NCBI GenBank assembly: GCA_016932495.1
Contig: JAFGCR010000030.1
Location: 1-32,845 of the forward strand
DNA from: Candidatus Peregrinibacteria bacterium
GTDB lineage: Bacteria > Patescibacteriota > Gracilibacteria > UM-FILTER-43-11
DNA: 32,845 nucleotides
Direction: 5' to 3'
Position numbers and translations under genes: made by a program. Below the pieces are notes generated by a model that was given only the letters and a program-made list of their open reading frames with translations, was not told where the DNA came from and ran no database searches. Below, one piece after another: positions 5,083 to 13,636 of this stretch (the first letter of the stretch is position 1; the number at the start of each line of letters is the position of its first letter).

Positions 5083-5136
5083 GAATATTTTTTAGATTTT
5101 TTTTCCTTATATATAAATAGGTATAAGTAGTGGGTC

Positions 5137-5165
5137 AAGTCCGGACTCCATTGGAGTCCGGACTT
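5137..5165. repeat. 29-bp palindrome
   Basis: The 14-bp arm aagtccggactcca is followed by one central base and its exact complement. It has no T-run on either side, so it is not a standard intrinsic terminator; it may be an operator or the end of the upstream transcript. Confidence 0.6.
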
Positions 5166-6848: not shown

Positions 6849-8750
6849 CTAGAACCGGAGGCCCAGAAGCACTCGGAACATGGGGCCGTCCGGGTTGATC
6901 GGCTCTCCGCCGGTGAAGTTCGTGGGGGCACCGTCCAGCGAGAAATGCTTCCCGCCTTCGAGTGCGACGAACAGGGCGTCGAGCCCGGTCAGCTCCAGAC
7001 CGCCCAGGAGGCCCCACCCATCAGGGTTGGGCTGTCCGTAGGCGCGGAAGTACGCGCTGACCCAGCCGAACAGGTTGAGGCCCACTCGGCCACCCGCCTG
7101 AAAGACGGAATGGTCGACGAGGACACTCTCGCCGTCGGACCGGCTGTCGTACACCAAGGTCTCGCGGTGGGCCAGCTCCATGTGGAAGCCGGCGAACAGG
7201 GTGAGCTCGCTGATGATGTTCCACTCGAGATCGAGACCGAGGATCCCACCGATGGTGAAACCTTCGTGCTCGACGGTGCCCGAGATTCCGCGGAAGCTCT
7301 GGGTGTGGCTGCCGTTGAAGCCGGCGTAGGTGATGCCGGCGTACAGGTTGACGTAGCTGGGCAGCAGCGGCTTGCCGTCGTGGGTGAACCAGGCCGTGAC
7401 CGTGGAGTTACCCACGTGACCGTGGTTGAACTTGCTGAGGCGGGTCTCCACTTCGGGACACTTGGTGTCGGAGCACTTGGGCTCCGGGCAGTCGCTGTTG
7501 ATGCCAGCCACCTCGTTGAACTTGTCGGTGGGCAGGGCGCTGAAGAAGCGGGCCAGCTGGAACAGGCGTTCCTCGTCGTTGCCGGCCTTCTTCGCGTTGT
7601 CCACGAAGGGGCTGAGCTGGGTCTTGGTCGGCTCGTCGAGGGAGGCGAGGGTGTCCTCGGCCTTCTTGAGGAGGGTCTTGACGGCATCGCCGTCGAAGGC
7701 CCACTGGTTGTCCTTGATGAGCTTCTGCAGGTCACCGAGAGCGGCGGCGAGTTCTCCGCGCGCCTTCTCGATCTGCTCCGGTGTGCCGGAGGTCGAAAGG
7801 GCGTGGAGTTCGCCCAGTTTCTGGTTGTACAGGTCGCGGGCCGCGTTGATGGCTGCGTCCTGGCCGCGCTTGCCGTTCATGGCGTTGCGCAGGGCGTTCT
7901 CCCAGCCGTTCTCCGCGTTCTTGATGCGGACGGCGAAGTCACCCTGCATGTCGCGGAACACGCGGTCGTAGGCGTTGAGGACGTTGAGCACGGCCTCGGT
8001 AGCGCCGATGGCGATGGTGAACTGCCCCTTGGTCTTGCGGGCCTTGTTCTTGTTCTCCATGACGCCCAGGGCCGCCTTGCCGTCCTCCATTGCGGAGGTG
8101 TTCTGCGGAATGAGATCGGCGAGACGGTTGAACATGGCGCGGACGACGTCGAGAAGCTCGACGTTCACCCCGCGCAGGGCCAGGAGCTGGCCCTGGAGGG
8201 GGTCGGCCTTGAGGACCGGCTTGGTCTTGTCGGCGACCTTGCCCTTGTCCGCGGGGGACGCGGAGCACCTGTTGAGTTCCAGGCCGTTGTCGGCGAAGTC
8301 GGCCGGCGAGCACTGGTGAGCGGCCAGGTCCGCGACGAGCTTGTCGCGGTTGGCGTTCTGCCAGTCGCAGTCGCTGGCCTTGGCGCCCAGCCATGCCTTG
8401 AGCAAGGTGTCTTCGTTCAGCATGGGGGCCTTCTTGCAGGCCTTGCTGGCGATCTTGCCCTTGTCCGCGGGAGCGGGGGGATTGTTGCATGCGCTGAAGT
8501 CGGCCTTGAAGTCGGCAGGTGTGCAGCCGGCGTCGGACAGGGCCTTGTCGACCGCGGCCTTGTTGGCCAGGTAGGGGGTGCAGTAGTCGCCCTTCTTGGT
8601 GACGGACACCAGTACCGTCTGGGCGCTGGCGTCGCTCAGGACATCACGCTTGTTGCAGGTGCCCTGCTGCGCGAACACGGGGTTGGTTGAGAACAGGACG
8701 GCGGCCACCATGGCCGCCACGGCGAACAACAGCTTGGTCGTCTGTGCCAT
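6849..8750 (-). CDS. GC-rich secreted Cys-repeat / coiled-coil / putative beta-barrel protein
   Basis: A 633-aa protein from the ATG preceded by GAGGAGG (8759-8765) at 8 nt; the same frame is open 22 codons further up to another SD-led ATG at 8816. Residues 1-27 are a signal peptide (VFA|QQ). Two related segments (about 57-105 and 128-178) share the pattern C, about 18 residues, CxPADF, then C and PADKGK. Residues about 180-420 are charged and helical. A CPEPKCSDTKC cluster precedes residues 442-633, which alternate glycine/aromatic beta-strands and end in RVLLGLRF. A C-terminal Phe on a last strand is the hallmark of outer-membrane beta-barrels assembled by BamA. I infer an 8-stranded OmpA-like barrel, which is odd beside SLH and sortase-type proteins. 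No enzyme motif is seen. The alternative is a beta-sandwich surface domain. Confidence 0.8.
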   Translation of the reverse strand: MAQTTKLLFAVAAMVAAVLFSTNPVFAQQGTCNKRDVLSDASAQTVLVSVTKKGDYCTPYLANKAAVDKALSDAGCTPADFKADFSACNNPPAPADKGKIASKACKKAPMLNEDTLLKAWLGAKASDCDWQNANRDKLVADLAAHQCSPADFADNGLELNRCSASPADKGKVADKTKPVLKADPLQGQLLALRGVNVELLDVVRAMFNRLADLIPQNTSAMEDGKAALGVMENKNKARKTKGQFTIAIGATEAVLNVLNAYDRVFRDMQGDFAVRIKNAENGWENALRNAMNGKRGQDAAINAARDLYNQKLGELHALSTSGTPEQIEKARGELAAALGDLQKLIKDNQWAFDGDAVKTLLKKAEDTLASLDEPTKTQLSPFVDNAKKAGNDEERLFQLARFFSALPTDKFNEVAGINSDCPEPKCSDTKCPEVETRLSKFNHGHVGNSTVTAWFTHDGKPLLPSYVNLYAGITYAGFNGSHTQSFRGISGTVEHEGFTIGGILGLDLEWNIISELTLFAGFHMELAHRETLVYDSRSDGESVLVDHSVFQAGGRVGLNLFGWVSAYFRAYGQPNPDGWGLLGGLELTGLDALFVALEGGKHFSLDGAPTNFTGGEPINPDGPMFRVLLGLRF

Positions 8751-8849
8751 TTTCGTGGCCTCCTCTTTCAGGTTACGGGTTCGGTTCGAGACAGAGAACT
8801 TCAGGTTCCGGGTCATTTCGATTCATACCTCCTTCCTCCGTACCGGAGG
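8748..8849 (-). promoter_or_regulatory. Tandem-SD leader of the beta-barrel gene
   Basis: On the minus strand the order is: a 6-bp hairpin (8835-8849, cctccg/cggagg), directly adjoining AAGGAGGT (8827-8834), ATG1 at 8816 after 10 nt, 22 sense codons, GAGGAGG (8759-8765), then ATG2 at 8750 opening the signal peptide. ATG1 and ATG2 are in the same frame. The stretch around the first SD and ATG1 closely matches that of the gene at 12436-13137. Confidence 0.7.
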
Positions 8850-9439
8850 ATGTTAGGATGCACCCTCCGATACGGAATCGGGAGCGTGCGAGTTCAAAAC
8901 TTGTATGTGAACTAACTAACTTTGTCTGGTTAGCAGAGTTTAGGCCTGTTAGTTTTGAACTTAATCAATTCCTGAACTCGTTTCAGGATCTCACCAGCAA
9001 TCAGAACCCCGGAGAGACTCTGAAACAAGTTCAGAGATTAAATTCGGGGTTTGTCAGGATGGATTGGGATGAGAAATCTACAAGACTAAACTCTGCTAAC
9101 CAGCAGGAAGTACGAAATGCTGTTTCTGTGTAGTGTTAGGGCAATACCCCTGAGGGTAGCCCTGTAATGGTTTAATAGGGAAACGCTCTCCTTTTGCAAA
9201 AATCTTCTCTCAGACTTTCGCTAAAGCTTCGTCCGATTCGCAGATTTTCACATCGGAGTCCTCACTTCATTTCGGACGCCCATTTGGTTGTCCTCATTCC
9301 GTTCGGACCGCGTTTCTCGCTACTTACAGTAATGAGTTTTTAAAGATCATCTAAACATGAGAGGACTTCCTGCCCTTACCCTCAAAACCAATGGTTTTCA
9401 GGGGGAAGCAGGAAGCGGTCTACGATGTTTAGGTTCCCA
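8850..9439 (-). promoter_or_regulatory. Long structured 5' leader of the beta-barrel gene
   Basis: About 590 bp without a convincing gene, lying between promoter and first SD. It holds an 18-bp perfect inverted repeat (8926-8943 and 9086-9103), inside and around it smaller pairs (agttcaaaact/agttttgaact near 8890 and 8950; ctgaactcgtttcag near 8972 and its near-complement near 9020), a hairpin at 9138-9163 (agggc...gccct), and a long imperfect hairpin at 9366-9415 framed by ctaaacat/atgtttag. I recognise no known riboswitch. Confidence 0.5.
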
Positions 9440-9468
9440 ATTTTATAACAAATAATTAAAAATGTCAA
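9440..9468 (-). promoter_or_regulatory. Promoter of the beta-barrel/lipoprotein transcript
   Basis: On the minus strand TTGACA (9463-9468), exactly 17 bp, TAAAAT (9440-9445). A 28-bp AT palindrome lies 4 bp upstream. Predicted 5' leader is about 680 nt to the signal-peptide ATG. Confidence 0.75.
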
Positions 9469-9472
9469 GGCT

Positions 9473-9500
9473 TTTTATATAAATTATAATTTATATAAAA
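9473..9500. repeat. 28-bp perfect AT palindrome upstream of the -35 box
   Basis: The sequence is fully self-complementary (arms ttttatataaatta/taatttatataaaa). Its position just upstream of TTGACA suits an UP-element or an operator for a dimeric regulator. Confidence 0.6.
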
Positions 9501-9506
9501 CCCATC

Positions 9507-9546
9507 AAAAAACCCCTTCGGGACCTGAAGGCCGGAAAGGGGTTTT
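9507..9546 (-). terminator. Terminator of the small lipoprotein gene
   Basis: The stem aaaacccctt/aaggggtttt encloses an 18-nt loop that can pair further. On the minus strand it is followed by ttttgatggg and it lies about 60 bp after the gene stop. Confidence 0.65.
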
Positions 9547-9604
9547 GAAGGTTTAAAAAATCGAATGGTTAGCGCCTGCCTTTAGATCGGCGGACACCAT
9601 TTTG

Positions 9605-10144
9605 TTATTTTTTCTCGCGATTTCTAGCATGGGCACAGCGGACATAACGCCCATTTGCCATTCGTGGAACGTAAGGAGCGGGAGCATTTATACCGCTGGC
9701 ATCACCACTGACGAGTTTTGTCTTAAGTGTGCCGCCGACCATTTTTTCAACCAGGACACGTACTTTGGGATTGCGAAAAGCTTCCATAAAAACACGTCGT
9801 GCTTTAGCAGCTGCTTTATCCCCGGCTCTGCCAGCGTCTATCCCTGATTCAGCACATTCAATAACCGTTTCATCGTCCTGAAGGCCGTTGTACGGATAAG
9901 CATCCGGCTTTAAGCCGGAATCGATGGCATGTTTCATGCGGATACCTTTCATGACCGCGTCAACATCATTGCGGGCCGCGGCCGCGGCAATAAAAGCCTG
10001 AATATCGTCGCTGCCTTTAAGCGATTCAGCGCCTTTTAAATTTCCGGCGCCGCCGGCACAGGCCTGAAGCAGGAATGCCAGGAGTGCGGTGGAAGAAAGT
10101 GCGCCGATGGACTTTCTATCCGGAGAGTTCTTAGGTTTTTTCAT
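9605..10144 (-). CDS. Small lipoprotein, function unknown
   Basis: A 179-aa protein with a lipoprotein signal peptide (basic MKKPKNSPDRK start, hydrophobic stretch, lipobox LQAC with Cys29). The mature part is helical and basic toward the C-terminus (KAAAKARRVFMEAFRNPKVRVLVEK), with one pair of later Cys and a hydrophilic end; no domain is recognised. It sits between GC-rich genes but itself has host-like composition and no SD, so it marks the surrounding region as genuine host sequence. It has its own promoter and terminator and is probably monocistronic. Confidence 0.8.
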   Translation of the reverse strand: MKKPKNSPDRKSIGALSSTALLAFLLQACAGGAGNLKGAESLKGSDDIQAFIAAAAARNDVDAVMKGIRMKHAIDSGLKPDAYPYNGLQDDETVIECAESGIDAGRAGDKAAAKARRVFMEAFRNPKVRVLVEKMVGGTLKTKLVSGDASGINAPAPYVPRMANGRYVRCAHARNREKK

Positions 10145-10180
10145 AATGATTTATAATGATAAAAATAAAATTGAGAACGT

Positions 10181-10209
10181 ATTTTAAAACATATAATTAT
10201 TTTTGTCAA
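10181..10209 (-). promoter_or_regulatory. Promoter of the small lipoprotein gene
   Basis: On the minus strand TTGACA (10204-10209), 17 bp, TAAAAT (10181-10186), giving a short leader of about 30 nt. Confidence 0.75.
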
Positions 10210-10259
10210 TACTTTTTTAAAAAATAAAAAATAATCACAGAAATAATTAAAGAAAAGGT

Positions 10260-10291
10260 GCCCCCGCCGTGCGCATGCGCACGGCGGGGGC
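10260..10291 (-). terminator. 32-bp GC palindrome, terminator of the 485-aa membrane protein gene
   Basis: Fully self-complementary (arm gcccccgccgtgcgca). It starts 25 bp after the stop codon and on the minus strand is followed by a T-rich stretch (ccttttctttaattattt), consistent with intrinsic termination. Confidence 0.7.
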
Positions 10292-10316
10292 GGGGAAGGG
10301 TTCTTCTCCTTTCTAG

Positions 10317-11774
10317 CTAGTGGTCTTCGTCGAGGCCGGCCAGGAGACGGTCCCGTTCTTGGGCCTCGTCGCGGCAGGTCTCGTGGACCCGCCGCTCCAG
10401 CTCTAGGGCCTGGAGCTGGGCGGGATCCGCGGCTTCACCCTGGGCCTTCATGACCTCGATCTGAGGGGTGAGGTGTTCGATGGCCGCCTGATGTCTGGCT
10501 ATGATGTCCGCAAAGAGCTCGCGGCTCTGCTCCCGGACCAGCTCTGGTTTGAGCGCCGCGATCACGGCGTCCAGCAGGGGCTCGGGGGGCACTTCGAGCG
10601 CTTCCTCGAAGTCGGTGCGGGACACCATGGTGGCGCCGAGCTTGGCGATCACCGCCTTCATGAAGGGGTGATCGGGGTGGAGGAATCCACCTTCATCCGA
10701 GCTGGTGAGCCTGTCAAGCAGCTTGGCCTCAAGGGCCTCGAAGCTCGCGGCATCCACCGGCGGGAGTGGGGGGACTTCGCCGTCTGATGGGGTAGGACTG
10801 ACACCAGTCGGGGCGCCGGGACCCTTCGGGGGGGTCTTCTTGCCCTTCTTCTTCCGCTTGATGAGGAAGATGATGAGGGCGATGAGAGCCAGCAGAATCA
10901 GCGGGATGCCGATCACACCGACCCAGCCGAGAATAGCCAGGGCGTAGGCGAACCAGTCCGGACACTCCTCGTTGCCACCCTTCTTCAGGACCCACGGGTC
11001 GTTGGGGCTGAGCTCGTCGCGCAGGTACTCGGGGCAGTTCAGGCAGACACAGAGTTCCGGGAACTCCGGGATCTCCGTGCTTACCTTCTCGCTGATGTCC
11101 GCGGGGCAGGTGTCGGCGAAGCCGTCCTCACTGGGGTGGAGCTTCGTCTGGTGGTAGGCGTTCCAGCGCTTGGCCTTTTCGTAGGCCTCGCGGTCCTTCT
11201 CACGCTGGAGTGCGGCCAGACGTCTGGCTTCGTCGTCATGCCGCTTTTTGGCAGCGGCCAGTTCGTCTCTGGTCATGCAGGTCTTGTCGACGTTCTGGCC
11301 GGCGACCACGAACTTGCCGGCGAGTTCCTTCTCGTCGCACTCACAGTGCAGCTTGTCCGCTGTCTCGTGCGTGCCAGAGGGGCAGCCGCACTTGTCGGAG
11401 GTGGCGTCCTTCTTGGCCACCTTTTTACCCAGCAGAGCGCAGGGTTCCATGGTGGCTACGACCACGACGCCCTTGCAGGTGAACTCCTCCGGAATGGCGG
11501 CGACAGTCTTCTTGCAGCTGTTGAGCATGGTGGAGTCGCCCAGGTAGCCGTTGCAGTCCGAGCGGGCGAACACCTTCTGATCCGCGGCGTTGGCGTTGAG
11601 CCAGCTCTTGAGCTGGCAGTTGGTGCCGCAGTCGCCGCCGGGGCACTGCGCGGCCTTCTTGATCAGGTCGTTGGCCTTGGGGGCCTTGGGGAAGTCGGGC
11701 GGTCCGGCCCAGGCGGTGGCAGTCAGGCCCAGCAGGGCCATGACCACGGTGAGCAACAGGATTCTCCGTGCCAT
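10317..11774 (-). CDS. GC-rich single-pass membrane protein with six-cysteine ectodomain
   Basis: A 485-aa protein from the ATG preceded by AAGGAGA (11782-11788) at 7 nt; the frame stays open 17 codons upstream to another SD-led ATG at 11825. Residues 1-23 are a signal peptide (AWA|GPP). Residues 27-100 are a six-Cys domain (Cys 44, 49, 53, 74, 87, 100; motifs APKANDLI, CPGGDC, FARSDCNGYLG) shared with the protein at 12436-13137. A second Cys-rich part follows (112-166), then a charged helix (about 168-205), more Cys (223-271), a transmembrane segment (about 275-305) and a KRKKKGKK stop-transfer. The predicted cytoplasmic tail (about 310-485) is Pro-rich, then helical. This topology suits a receptor or envelope-spanning scaffold. 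The family is unknown to me. Codon use is strongly GC-ending. Confidence 0.82.
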   Translation of the reverse strand: MARRILLLTVVMALLGLTATAWAGPPDFPKAPKANDLIKKAAQCPGGDCGTNCQLKSWLNANAADQKVFARSDCNGYLGDSTMLNSCKKTVAAIPEEFTCKGVVVVATMEPCALLGKKVAKKDATSDKCGCPSGTHETADKLHCECDEKELAGKFVVAGQNVDKTCMTRDELAAAKKRHDDEARRLAALQREKDREAYEKAKRWNAYHQTKLHPSEDGFADTCPADISEKVSTEIPEFPELCVCLNCPEYLRDELSPNDPWVLKKGGNEECPDWFAYALAILGWVGVIGIPLILLALIALIIFLIKRKKKGKKTPPKGPGAPTGVSPTPSDGEVPPLPPVDAASFEALEAKLLDRLTSSDEGGFLHPDHPFMKAVIAKLGATMVSRTDFEEALEVPPEPLLDAVIAALKPELVREQSRELFADIIARHQAAIEHLTPQIEVMKAQGEAADPAQLQALELERRVHETCRDEAQERDRLLAGLDEDH

Positions 11775-11872
11775 GACTGTTTCTCCTTTCGTACCTCTAA
11801 ACGGTTTCTGGTTCGTTCTAAGCATTCGTTAACCTCCTTCCCCGCGATGGGGGAGTGAACTCCCCTGCGGGG
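11772..11872 (-). promoter_or_regulatory. Tandem-SD leader of the 485-aa membrane protein gene
   Basis: On the minus strand: a hairpin (11840-11872; ccccgc/gcgggg plus inner ggggag/ctcccc with tgaa loop) touches AAGGAGGT (11832-11839). ATG1 follows at 11825 after 6 nt, then 17 codons in frame, AAGGAGA, and ATG2 at 11774. The order is the same as in the beta-barrel gene leader. Confidence 0.7.
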
Positions 11873-12246
11873 AGGGGATTTTTAGAAAACGGCTGACAAG
11901 CCGGATCCATTCCCTAAAAATAGGGAACAAATACGGCTTGTCAGTATTTCTGTTAAGCTAGAAAAAAGTGTACAGTTTATAAAACACCCAAAAACCATCG
12001 TCTCTTTTTAAAAAAAGAGCGGCTGATTTTATTGAATGATCATAAGTGTACTAAACCCTTCTTGTAAAAGATCATATCCCGCTCATAAGAGAGCCGGGAT
12101 TCCGATGATGTCACTTAGCCAAAAAAACGCAAGTATTAAAAGCTCAAAAGCTTATTGAACATTGCGCGTTGTGTCCGCCCGGTGATGGGGGATTAGGTTG
12201 GTTCGAACCAAAGGTTTTTGACTTAAATGACAAAAGTCGGATTGCA
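11873..12246 (-). promoter_or_regulatory. Long 5' leader of the 485-aa membrane protein gene
   Basis: About 370 bp without a gene. It contains a two-tier hairpin (11893-11944: ctgacaagccg/cggcttgtcag outside, ttcccta/tagggaa inside), an AT hairpin near 12002-12018, and a 14-bp palindrome ttggttcgaaccaa (12198-12211) close to the predicted transcription start. Confidence 0.5.
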
Positions 12247-12275
12247 ATTGTAGATTATTTTATAAAATTTGTCAA
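12247..12275 (-). promoter_or_regulatory. Promoter of the 485-aa membrane protein gene
   Basis: On the minus strand TTGACA (12270-12275), 17 bp, TACAAT (12247-12252). Predicted leader is about 465 nt to the signal-peptide ATG. Confidence 0.75.
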
Positions 12276-12279
12276 GTTT

Positions 12280-12318
12280 AAAAAACAAACAACAAAAAAG
12301 CCCTCCTGATAAGGAGGG
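12280..12318 (-). terminator. Terminator of the 233-aa membrane protein gene
   Basis: Stem ccctcc/ggaggg (12301-12306/12313-12318), followed on the minus strand by a run of T (cttttttgttgtttgtt). It lies upstream of the next promoter, separating the two transcripts. Confidence 0.8.
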
Positions 12319-12435
12319 GCCGACTCACCGAAGCCCTGAGTAAGATCGAAGGGCGGAGGTGAGACGGGGGAGGTTTAAAGAAACCCCCGCTCCGATACAA
12401 GACCGGAGCGGGGGCGCGCGGGCAGAGGGGAACGA
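12319..12435 (-). other. Structured 3' UTR of the 233-aa membrane protein gene
   Basis: Contains an 11-bp GC hairpin (12384-12394/12404-12414, cccccgctccg) just after the stop codon and a weaker two-part fold (ctcacc...ggtgag with gccct...agggc, about 12324-12363) before the terminator. Confidence 0.5.
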
Positions 12436-13137
12436 CTACTTCTTCTTGTCCTTCGGGGGCGGGGAGATGAGCTTCTTGAGCGTGGGGCCGAGCCACGGCC
12501 AGGCCGTGTAGAGTGTCAGGAGCAGGTTGAGGATGAGCAGGAAGATGATCAGGCGCCGGGGGGCGTCGGGCCTGGCCTTCAGCTCGTCGATCGACTGTTT
12601 GAGCTTGTTGATGGATGCCGTGTGACTCTCAACATCTTTCCTCGTGGCGACTCGATCCCAAAGGGCGTGCTTGAACGTTTCGAACTTCTCTTTGTCCAGA
12701 CACTCGGTGCTGGCCGCGGCGGGTGGATCGGGTTTGTCGACCTTGCCGTTGTCGGCGGGCTTGTCGGCCGGCTTCTTGCCCGGCTTCTTGCCGTTGCCAG
12801 TGTCGGCCACATGGGGCGGCTTCTTACCGCCTCTCTTGCACTTGAACTTCTCAGGAATGGCGGCGACCGCCTGCTTGCACTTGTCGAGCAGGTCGGTGCC
12901 CAGGTACCCGTTGCAGTCCGAGCGGGCGAAGACCTTCTGGTCGGCCACATTGGCGTTCAGCCACTGGGCCAGCCTGCAGTCGTCGCCGCAGTCGCCGCCG
13001 GGGCACTTGGCGGCCTTCTGGATCAGGTCGTTGGCCTTGGGGGCCTTCTCGAAGCTGAGCCCTTCGGCGTGGACGGGGATCGAGATCCCCAGGAACAGGA
13101 TGGCCGCCAGCGCGGCCAGGGTCGTGTGCCATTTCAT
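12436..13137 (-). CDS. GC-rich membrane-anchored protein with six-cysteine ectodomain (paralogue)
   Basis: A 233-aa protein from the ATG preceded by AAGGAGGT (13142-13149) at 4 nt; upstream the frame continues 12 codons to a second SD-led ATG at 13173. Residues 1-24 are a signal peptide (VHA|EG). Residues 29-100 are the six-Cys domain (Cys 45, 50, 54, 75, 87, 100), closely matching the 10317-11774 protein (for example FARSDCNGYLG and VAAIPE). A Lys/Pro/Asp-rich linker (about 101-145), a helical segment with heptad character (about 148-190), a transmembrane helix (about 196-213) and a basic tail ending KDKKK follow. It is a minimal version of its neighbour: same ectodomain, almost no cytoplasmic part. 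Lysine is nearly always AAG, unlike the AAA-rich host genes. Its function is unknown. Confidence 0.82.
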   Translation of the reverse strand: MKWHTTLAALAAILFLGISIPVHAEGLSFEKAPKANDLIQKAAKCPGGDCGDDCRLAQWLNANVADQKVFARSDCNGYLGTDLLDKCKQAVAAIPEKFKCKRGGKKPPHVADTGNGKKPGKKPADKPADNGKVDKPDPPAAASTECLDKEKFETFKHALWDRVATRKDVESHTASINKLKQSIDELKARPDAPRRLIIFLLILNLLLTLYTAWPWLGPTLKKLISPPPKDKKK

Positions 13138-13235
13138 GGCAACCTCCTTCTTTCGGTTAAAGTTCGGGGTCATTTGATTCGTACCTCCTTCCTCCCTCGT
13201 CGGGTGGATAAGCGCTCCGACGAAGGTGTCGGGAG
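13135..13235 (-). promoter_or_regulatory. Tandem-SD leader of the 233-aa membrane protein gene
   Basis: On the minus strand: a hairpin (13192-13235; tcgtcgg/ccgacga inside ctccc/gggag) sits one base from AAGGAGGT (13183-13190). ATG1 follows at 13173 after 9 nt, then 12 codons in frame, AAGGAGGT (13142-13149), and ATG2 at 13137. Bases around the first SD and ATG1 nearly match those before the beta-barrel gene. Confidence 0.7.
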
Positions 13236-13314: not shown

Positions 13315-13636
13315 TTTAGTAGTCGTTGATTTGCTTTGATCTTCCAAAAGCGTCTGACCCGGTAAACCGGACAAAACAGCCCATTGGTTGTAAAGCTTAT
13401 CAAATCAATAGGGTCCGATGTACATCGGACTCACTACTTGTCCCTCTGCTATAAAAGAACATAACGGGCATAAAGGCCCTTACCCAATCACTGGATACAC
13501 GGATTGGTCGTAAATTGTATATAATTTTAGCGATTTTGTCAAGTCATTTCAGTCTTGAGAGACAATTGATGTTTTTAGCCGAATCACCTACAATTAGACC
13601 ACCGATTAGGCCCCAATTAGGTCACCCATCAGTAGT
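13315..13636. promoter_or_regulatory. Divergent intergenic region before aroD
   Basis: Holds the minus-strand promoter TTGACA (13537-13542), 17 bp, TACAAT (13514-13519) for the 233-aa membrane protein (leader about 370 nt), and in that leader an 18-bp perfect palindrome gtccgatgtacatcggac (13413-13430). Near aroD, attag-containing units recur at about 11 bp (13590-13630), a faint echo of the phased arrays further right. No clear aroD promoter was found. Confidence 0.65.

Follow-up and report, generated by a model that had tools for sequence, protein, structure and literature searches.

In the cell-wall-protein (cwp/MWP) operon of Bacillus brevis 47, the leader carries two tandem in-frame starts before the signal peptide. 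In the phage lambda S holin gene, a stem-loop just upstream of the Shine-Dalgarno (SD) sequence partitions two in-frame starts, which differ by a positively charged N-terminal addition, and aprE has a stabilising leader with both a 5' hairpin and a strong SD. Here, we analyzed a leader of a related kind on three genes for exported proteins (A, B, and C) in a 32,845-nucleotide stretch of a Candidatus Peregrinibacteria genome (contig JAFGCR010000030.1; hereafter the window). The layout shared by these genes had been pointed out in an earlier, sequence-only reading as one with no described equivalent, which does not hold given the dual in-frame starts of the B. brevis 47 operon and lambda S. Our observations suggest, with about an even chance of being right, that exported proteins in this lineage share a conserved leader in which a partly gated module of tandem starts supplies a disposable n-region.

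Tandem in-frame starts in three genes and their relatives

All coordinates below are window positions, and all elements of genes A, B, and C lie on the minus strand. In each gene, a hairpin is followed by a first SD and start (SD1 and ATG1), an extension of 22, 17, or 12 open codons (A, B, and C, respectively), and a second SD and start (SD2 and ATG2), the latter opening a signal peptide. As the sequence-only reading had described, this order runs through a single frame without a stop at all three genes. Searching the genome and its relatives, as that reading had suggested, brought 11 further loci in six other genomes, giving a total of 14 dual-start loci with 12 distinct extensions in 7 genomes and 6 genera of one Peregrinibacteria family. 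In a genome of the same genus (G001), the homologues of all three genes (A', B', and C') are syntenic and have the same promoters and the same order from hairpin to ATG2. The other eight loci are found in five other genera of the family: two each in G010, G002, and G012, and one each in G009 and G003, the last two genomes having been reached with a second covariance model.

One rule was applied to the dual loci, by which the first start is the strongest SD-ATG downstream of the expected transcript start and upstream of ATG2. By this rule, the two starts are in frame, free of stops, and 12 to 35 codons apart in 14 out of 14 dual loci, and each has an SD of its own, of varying strength. Within the same genome, a control on sampled stretches (about 330 kb, 271 open reading frames [ORFs]) showed that an ATG with an SD match of at least 7 bases is present in only 7 of the ORFs, and that in-frame SD-ATG pairs 8-35 codons apart are limited to genes A, B, and C and to three weak or doubtful sites, with no convincing case among the other 268 ORFs. 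The 1.175 Mb genome has only 16 matches to the string AAGGAGGT-N4-12-ATG, and five of them lie inside the window. The window genes are only three, and an ATG is easily matched to a strong SD, so that the layout might be put down to chance or to a reader's choice of favourable cases. However, it recurs at 11 further loci and is rare elsewhere in the genome, and dinucleotide shuffles put the chance that all 12 distinct extensions are open and in frame at a P of about 10^-9 (10^-5.7 for frame alone), a value that overstates the evidence somewhat as the extensions are not fully independent (A/A', the G010 pair, and the G012 pair). In practice, this comparison refutes the chance explanation, to which we give next to no probability.

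The hairpin of gene A (8876-8837) lies 2 nt from SD1 (AAGGAGGT, 8834-8827) and is kept in A' (CCGTATCGGAG/CTCCGATACGG). After a 10 nt gap, ATG1 (8816) opens the 22-codon extension MTRNLKFSVSNRTRNLKEEATK (8751-8816), within which SD2 (GAGGAGG, 8765-8759) precedes ATG2 (8750). In gene B, a two-tier hairpin (11872-11840) touches SD1 (AAGGAGGT, 11839-11832), which is followed after 6 nt by ATG1 (11825), the 17-codon extension MLRTNQKPFRGTKGETV (11775-11825) with SD2 (AAGGAG, 11788-11783), and ATG2 (11774). Gene C has its hairpin at 13226-13195, SD1 (AAGGAGGT) at 13190-13183, and, 9 nt further on, ATG1 (13173) with the 12-codon extension MTPNFNRKKEVA (13138-13173), SD2 (again AAGGAGGT, 13149-13142), and ATG2 (13137). 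The hairpins had been placed 0-1 nt from SD1; as a small correction, the gap is 0 nt in B, 2 nt in A, and 4 nt in C, with purines between hairpin arm and SD1 in A and C that could lengthen the stem. The near-identity reported around SD1 and ATG1 at two loci applies to A and C (GAGGAAGGAGGTAYGAATCRAAATG).

From ATG2, gene A (6849-8750) encodes a signal peptide, a Cys-rich N-terminal region, and a barrel-like C-terminal domain; gene B (10317-11774) a signal peptide, a Cys-rich domain that it has in common with C, and a C-terminal transmembrane (TM) anchor; and gene C (12436-13137) a signal peptide, the Cys-rich domain, and a C-terminal TM anchor. Gene A (6849-8816) and A' (L023 7520-9304) are 54% identical in their N-terminal part and about 70% in their C-terminal part, with unrelated middles, as in a mosaic protein. 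The C-terminal domain of A (6852-7529, minus strand) has about nine long beta strands and a terminal LGLRF. Its structure model is of low confidence (predicted local distance difference test [pLDDT] 56), and the top PDB matches are outer-membrane barrels (OmpA, porins), none with E <0.001. Bacteria of the Candidate Phyla Radiation (CPR) have been proposed to lack an outer membrane (PMC6744442), in light of which a barrel-like domain is odd.

The 5' leader RNA and its boxA

Each window gene is preceded by a sigma70-type promoter matching 11 of 12 consensus positions: TTGACA-17-TAAAAT for A (9440-9468, expected start about 9433) and TTGACA-17-TACAAT for both B (12247-12275) and C (13514-13542). 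The expected 5' UTRs to ATG1 are 617, 415, and 334 nt (A, B, and C); across loci, the leader to ATG1 measures 280-620 nt, with a structured domain and boxA within its first 50-180 nt. These upstream promoters place the 5' end of the primary transcript well before the SD1 hairpin. Transcription starts between SD1 and SD2 had been named in the sequence-only reading as refuting evidence, and no promoter-like site was found in that interval at A, B, and C.

The leader of A begins with an RNA domain (9335-9438, minus strand) made up of P1 (CUAAACA/UGUUUAG), P2, and P3, with homologues in 9 loci and a 3' end reading TGATCTTTWACAAC. In this A-type domain, 14 pairs are changed on both sides and 86% of cells are paired, compared with at most 54% for slid partners, in an alignment that was fitted to the model and is biased toward it. 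B- and C-type leaders have different 5' parts and carry the same motif at the corresponding place. No Rfam family matched the leader at gathering or lax thresholds. A scan of 288 genomes of the class with a covariance model of the 5' domain found leaders only in this family, bar one weak match in G097 that we rejected because it sits in unrelated sequence; the copies in G005 and G008 are interrupted by contig ends. A pattern scan of GTDB found the leader in three genomes, G002 (Candidatus Peregrinibacteria fen_1329), G010, and G001 (Patescibacteria records), along with matches in Vagococcus and Labilibaculum that we judged to be chance, and the pattern scan of viral sequences gave no match.

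We had also considered an AGTAGYGAG...CCCTATTGA segment as the leader core; it was dropped, being a dispersed repeat that is missing from B and present in other intergenic places. The repeat, AAGTAGYGAG-(hairpin or about 150 nt of hairpins)-CCCTATTGAACCAGCACAG, lies at window positions 9325-9159 and 13439-13404 (minus strand) and in L064-L069, L074, and L075. It is found in leaders A, A', B', C', and C, with an empty site in B, and elsewhere in intergenic sequence in either orientation to genes; it resembles a miniature inverted-repeat transposable element (MITE) and has no Rfam match. Separately, a palindrome AAGTCCGGACTCC-NNN-GGAGTCCGGACTT is found at L023 9448-9476, in many copies in G001, in matching pieces in G007, and at window positions 5133-5165.

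The conserved leader motif resembles boxA of ribosomal RNA (rRNA) operons. With a position weight matrix (PWM) derived from five boxA sites in 16S rRNA leaders of this class and applied to the first 240 nt, the motif was the top site in 18 out of 19 leaders. In leader A, boxA TGATCTTTAAAAAC (9336-9349, minus strand) is the top PWM match, reached in 0 of 300 shuffles; likewise, TGTTCTTTTATAGC in leader C (13448-13461, minus strand; 0 of 300) aligns with G010a and C'. The site in leader B, TGATCTTTTACAAG (12061-12074, minus strand), is weak alone (34 of 300) and aligned with the boxA of B' and C'. These sites are close to the gammaproteobacterial consensus GYTCTTTAANA (PMC5725501), usually with A at position 2. 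The rrn leaders of the family carry a related boxA. In the two genomes compared, the leader site matches the genome's own rrn site at 13 of 14 positions in G003 (TGTTCATTAACAAC and TGTTCATTAACAGC) and at 11 of 14 in G010b; no rrn leader was recovered from the source genome. Alternatively, the conserved ATGATCTTTWACAACT might be a leader-peptide upstream ORF (uORF; MIFYNSL...) that controls downstream translation, as several leaders can be read as M-I-F/I-Y/N-N-S. We find this highly doubtful: the ATG is missing in G012b (AAGATC) and G000:C19 (ACGATC), length and end vary, no properly spaced SD precedes it, and a related motif is present in rrn leaders. The leader-peptide reading of ATGATCTTTTACAACT was rejected on the ATG lost at these two loci.

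NusB is encoded in all 14 Peregrinibacteria genomes tested (G000-G009, G018-G021). In the same 14 genomes, Rho gave no match over the family cut-off, and none at any score in G000. Rho antitermination by boxA was therefore rejected, and since Rho is undetected, we infer that boxA in these leaders is limited to a Rho-independent role.

Predicted use of the two starts

In predicted folds, SD1 pairs with a pyrimidine CCUCC-type foot at 8 out of 13 folded loci (A, A', B, B', C', C, G012a, and G012b), where its mean unpaired probability is 0.02-0.28; in G010a and G010b it is free. The outer stem of the hairpin is CCCCGC/GCGGGG in B and CCCCGT/ACGGGG in B' and C', thus changed on both sides. Within G010 and within G012, paralogues have almost the same hairpin-SD1 cassette and differ in the extension. 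The hairpin thus appears to be kept and, as modelled, to gate SD1 often, but not everywhere. This pairing, together with stabilising leaders such as aprE that combine a 5' hairpin with a strong SD, would also fit ATG2 as the sole productive start, with the hairpin and SD1 serving for ribosome standby or mRNA protection and the open extension being tolerated. However, a site used for standby alone would have no need of an ATG 5-10 nt away, or of an extension that is open and in frame, as it is in 12 of 12 cases, and we regard this explanation as clearly improbable.

The converse, in which ATG1 is the only real start, would make the extension a long hydrophilic n-region and SD2 a by-product of Lys-Glu or Gly-Glu codons before the hydrophobic core. 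In its favour, SD1 exceeds SD2 in strength at most loci, no extension is interrupted or out of frame, and the net positive charge of the extension fits an n-region. In each of the 13 loci measured, however, SD2 stands at an acceptable 4-8 nt before an ATG that starts a standard short signal peptide (with a weaker TGGAGA in G009), and SD1 is often predicted to be paired. Moreover, B and B' obtain AAGGAG as AAA GGA GAA (KGE) and the other loci as AAG GAG (KE), which argues that the SD rather than the peptide is conserved. A sole start at ATG1 therefore seems unlikely to us.

The extensions are mostly unrelated in sequence, 12-35 residues long, all with a net charge of +1 to +5, and their grand average of hydropathy (GRAVY) ranges from -1.9 to +0.6. 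Between A and A' (extension MNLNLNSKFSKRTRNPKEAT), the alignment has two 3-nt gaps, so that all gaps are multiples of 3, and in G002 an identical extension stands before two different mature proteins, one of them a lipoprotein. An AxA-type signal-peptide end or a lipobox, assigned by eye, follows ATG2 at 14 out of 14 loci. Both starts being upstream of it, the same mature protein is expected from each, which weakens the earlier suggestion of two protein forms. A separate long product, in which the extension masks or delays the signal peptide and part of the protein stays inside or inserts differently, would recall lambda S, where a similar positive addition delays translocation of the long form. 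We consider it very unlikely: the extensions share no conserved sequence, length, or hydropathy, they precede unrelated proteins including lipoproteins, and the cleavage site or lipobox is unaffected. That unrelated extensions stay open and in frame and keep a net positive charge is more easily reconciled with a disposable n-region than with a second functional form. The sequence-only reading had also raised translational coupling; in its usual sense this is not supported, because the frames are fused and neither a stop nor an overlap separates the starts.

The sequence shows a near-consensus sigma70 promoter that starts a long leader with a structured domain and an rRNA-type boxA. We propose that NusB and NusE (S10) bind this boxA and modify RNA polymerase in the way known from rRNA, so that the long structured leader and the gene would be transcribed fast and processively; with Rho undetected, the target of boxA would be pausing, intrinsic termination, or RNA folding. 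Downstream, a hairpin lies against SD1 at most loci, and SD1-ATG1 and SD2-ATG2 may both load ribosomes. As the extension is in frame, ribosomes from SD1 would be productive rather than obstructive to SD2: they would pass SD2-ATG2 and make a preprotein with 12-35 extra, net positive n-region residues, which signal peptidase would cut off, so that both starts supply one mature protein. Selection would hold the extension in frame and open because out-of-frame traffic across SD2 would lower output, leaving its sequence otherwise free. Opening and closing of the SD1 hairpin would tune total output, and the leader as a whole probably boosts or buffers the output of one secreted protein.

Several observations weigh against this proposal. 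The use of ATG1 and ATG2 is read from the sequence, and the loci, most of which came to light by way of the 5' RNA domain or of protein homology, were read by eye before the rule was applied. The predicted pairing of SD1 at eight loci could mean that ATG1 is rarely used, and G003 has no hairpin near SD1. Taken alone, boxA is weak in B, G009, and G012b, and it was not found in G000:C19. Finally, a single start follows the same 5' RNA domain in G002:C42, G013:C88, and G000:C19, which shows the modules to be separable. Homologues without SD1 and ATG1, or with stops between the starts, were named in the sequence-only reading as refuting evidence: stops were found in 0 of 11 homologues and other leader-bearing genes, and the three loci that do carry the 5' domain with a single start are in genes that differ from A, B, and C. 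Three loci, G000:C18 (L005), G000:C19 (L127), and G000:C42 (L067), have a TTGACA promoter and a strong SD with one start only, and are mostly GC-rich.

Comparison with described systems

In its wider form, which we hold tentatively and at a little short of an even chance, the proposal is of a leader cassette, used for exported proteins across this Peregrinibacteria family, in which a new structured RNA family and an rRNA-type boxA are combined with hairpin-gated in-frame starts. Its boxA would work independently of Rho, through polymerase speed or RNA folding, and the gate would control the amount of disposable n-region and of protein. If true, this would reveal how exported proteins are driven in a CPR lineage with a reduced genome and seemingly no Rho. 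It would also carry Nus-factor boxA over from rRNA to genes for surface proteins, and add a structured leader RNA that is absent from Rfam. A warning would follow for gene callers, which may overlook the module or place the N-termini of these proteins too early by 12-35 residues, and the old question of why tandem in-frame starts precede signal peptides would become testable across 14 natural replicates.

The B. brevis 47 cwp leader likewise places two SD-ATG units, separated by about 20-30 codons of a single reading frame, ahead of the Sec signal peptide of an abundant exported protein. The Peregrinibacteria leaders differ from it in phylum and sequence, and add boxA, a conserved 5' RNA domain, the SD1 hairpin, and many unrelated exported proteins. 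With lambda S, they have in common an SD-adjacent hairpin and two in-frame starts, one of which adds a positively charged N-terminal stretch; in lambda S, however, the starts are 2 codons apart and yield opposing products, whereas here they are 12-35 codons apart, with two SDs and cleavable signal peptides. The boxA-like TGWTCWTTNACAAC soon after the promoter, its similarity to the family rrn boxA, and the presence of NusB recall rrn boxA/Nus-factor leaders, including the boxA of the suhB 5' UTR (PMC5725501). Unlike these, the Peregrinibacteria leader stands on genes for exported proteins, would act without Rho antitermination as Rho is undetected, and is joined to a dual-start module. In Salmonella, pairs of N-terminal proteoforms from alternative in-frame starts on one gene have been seen experimentally (PMC11005335); those are scattered single genes, whereas the Peregrinibacteria loci repeat one leader design. 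Both elements, boxA leaders and dual in-frame starts ahead of signal peptides, are thus of known kinds. What is new, to our knowledge and within the open-licence literature searched, is their union as a repeated leader on unrelated exported proteins, together with an RNA domain absent from Rfam.

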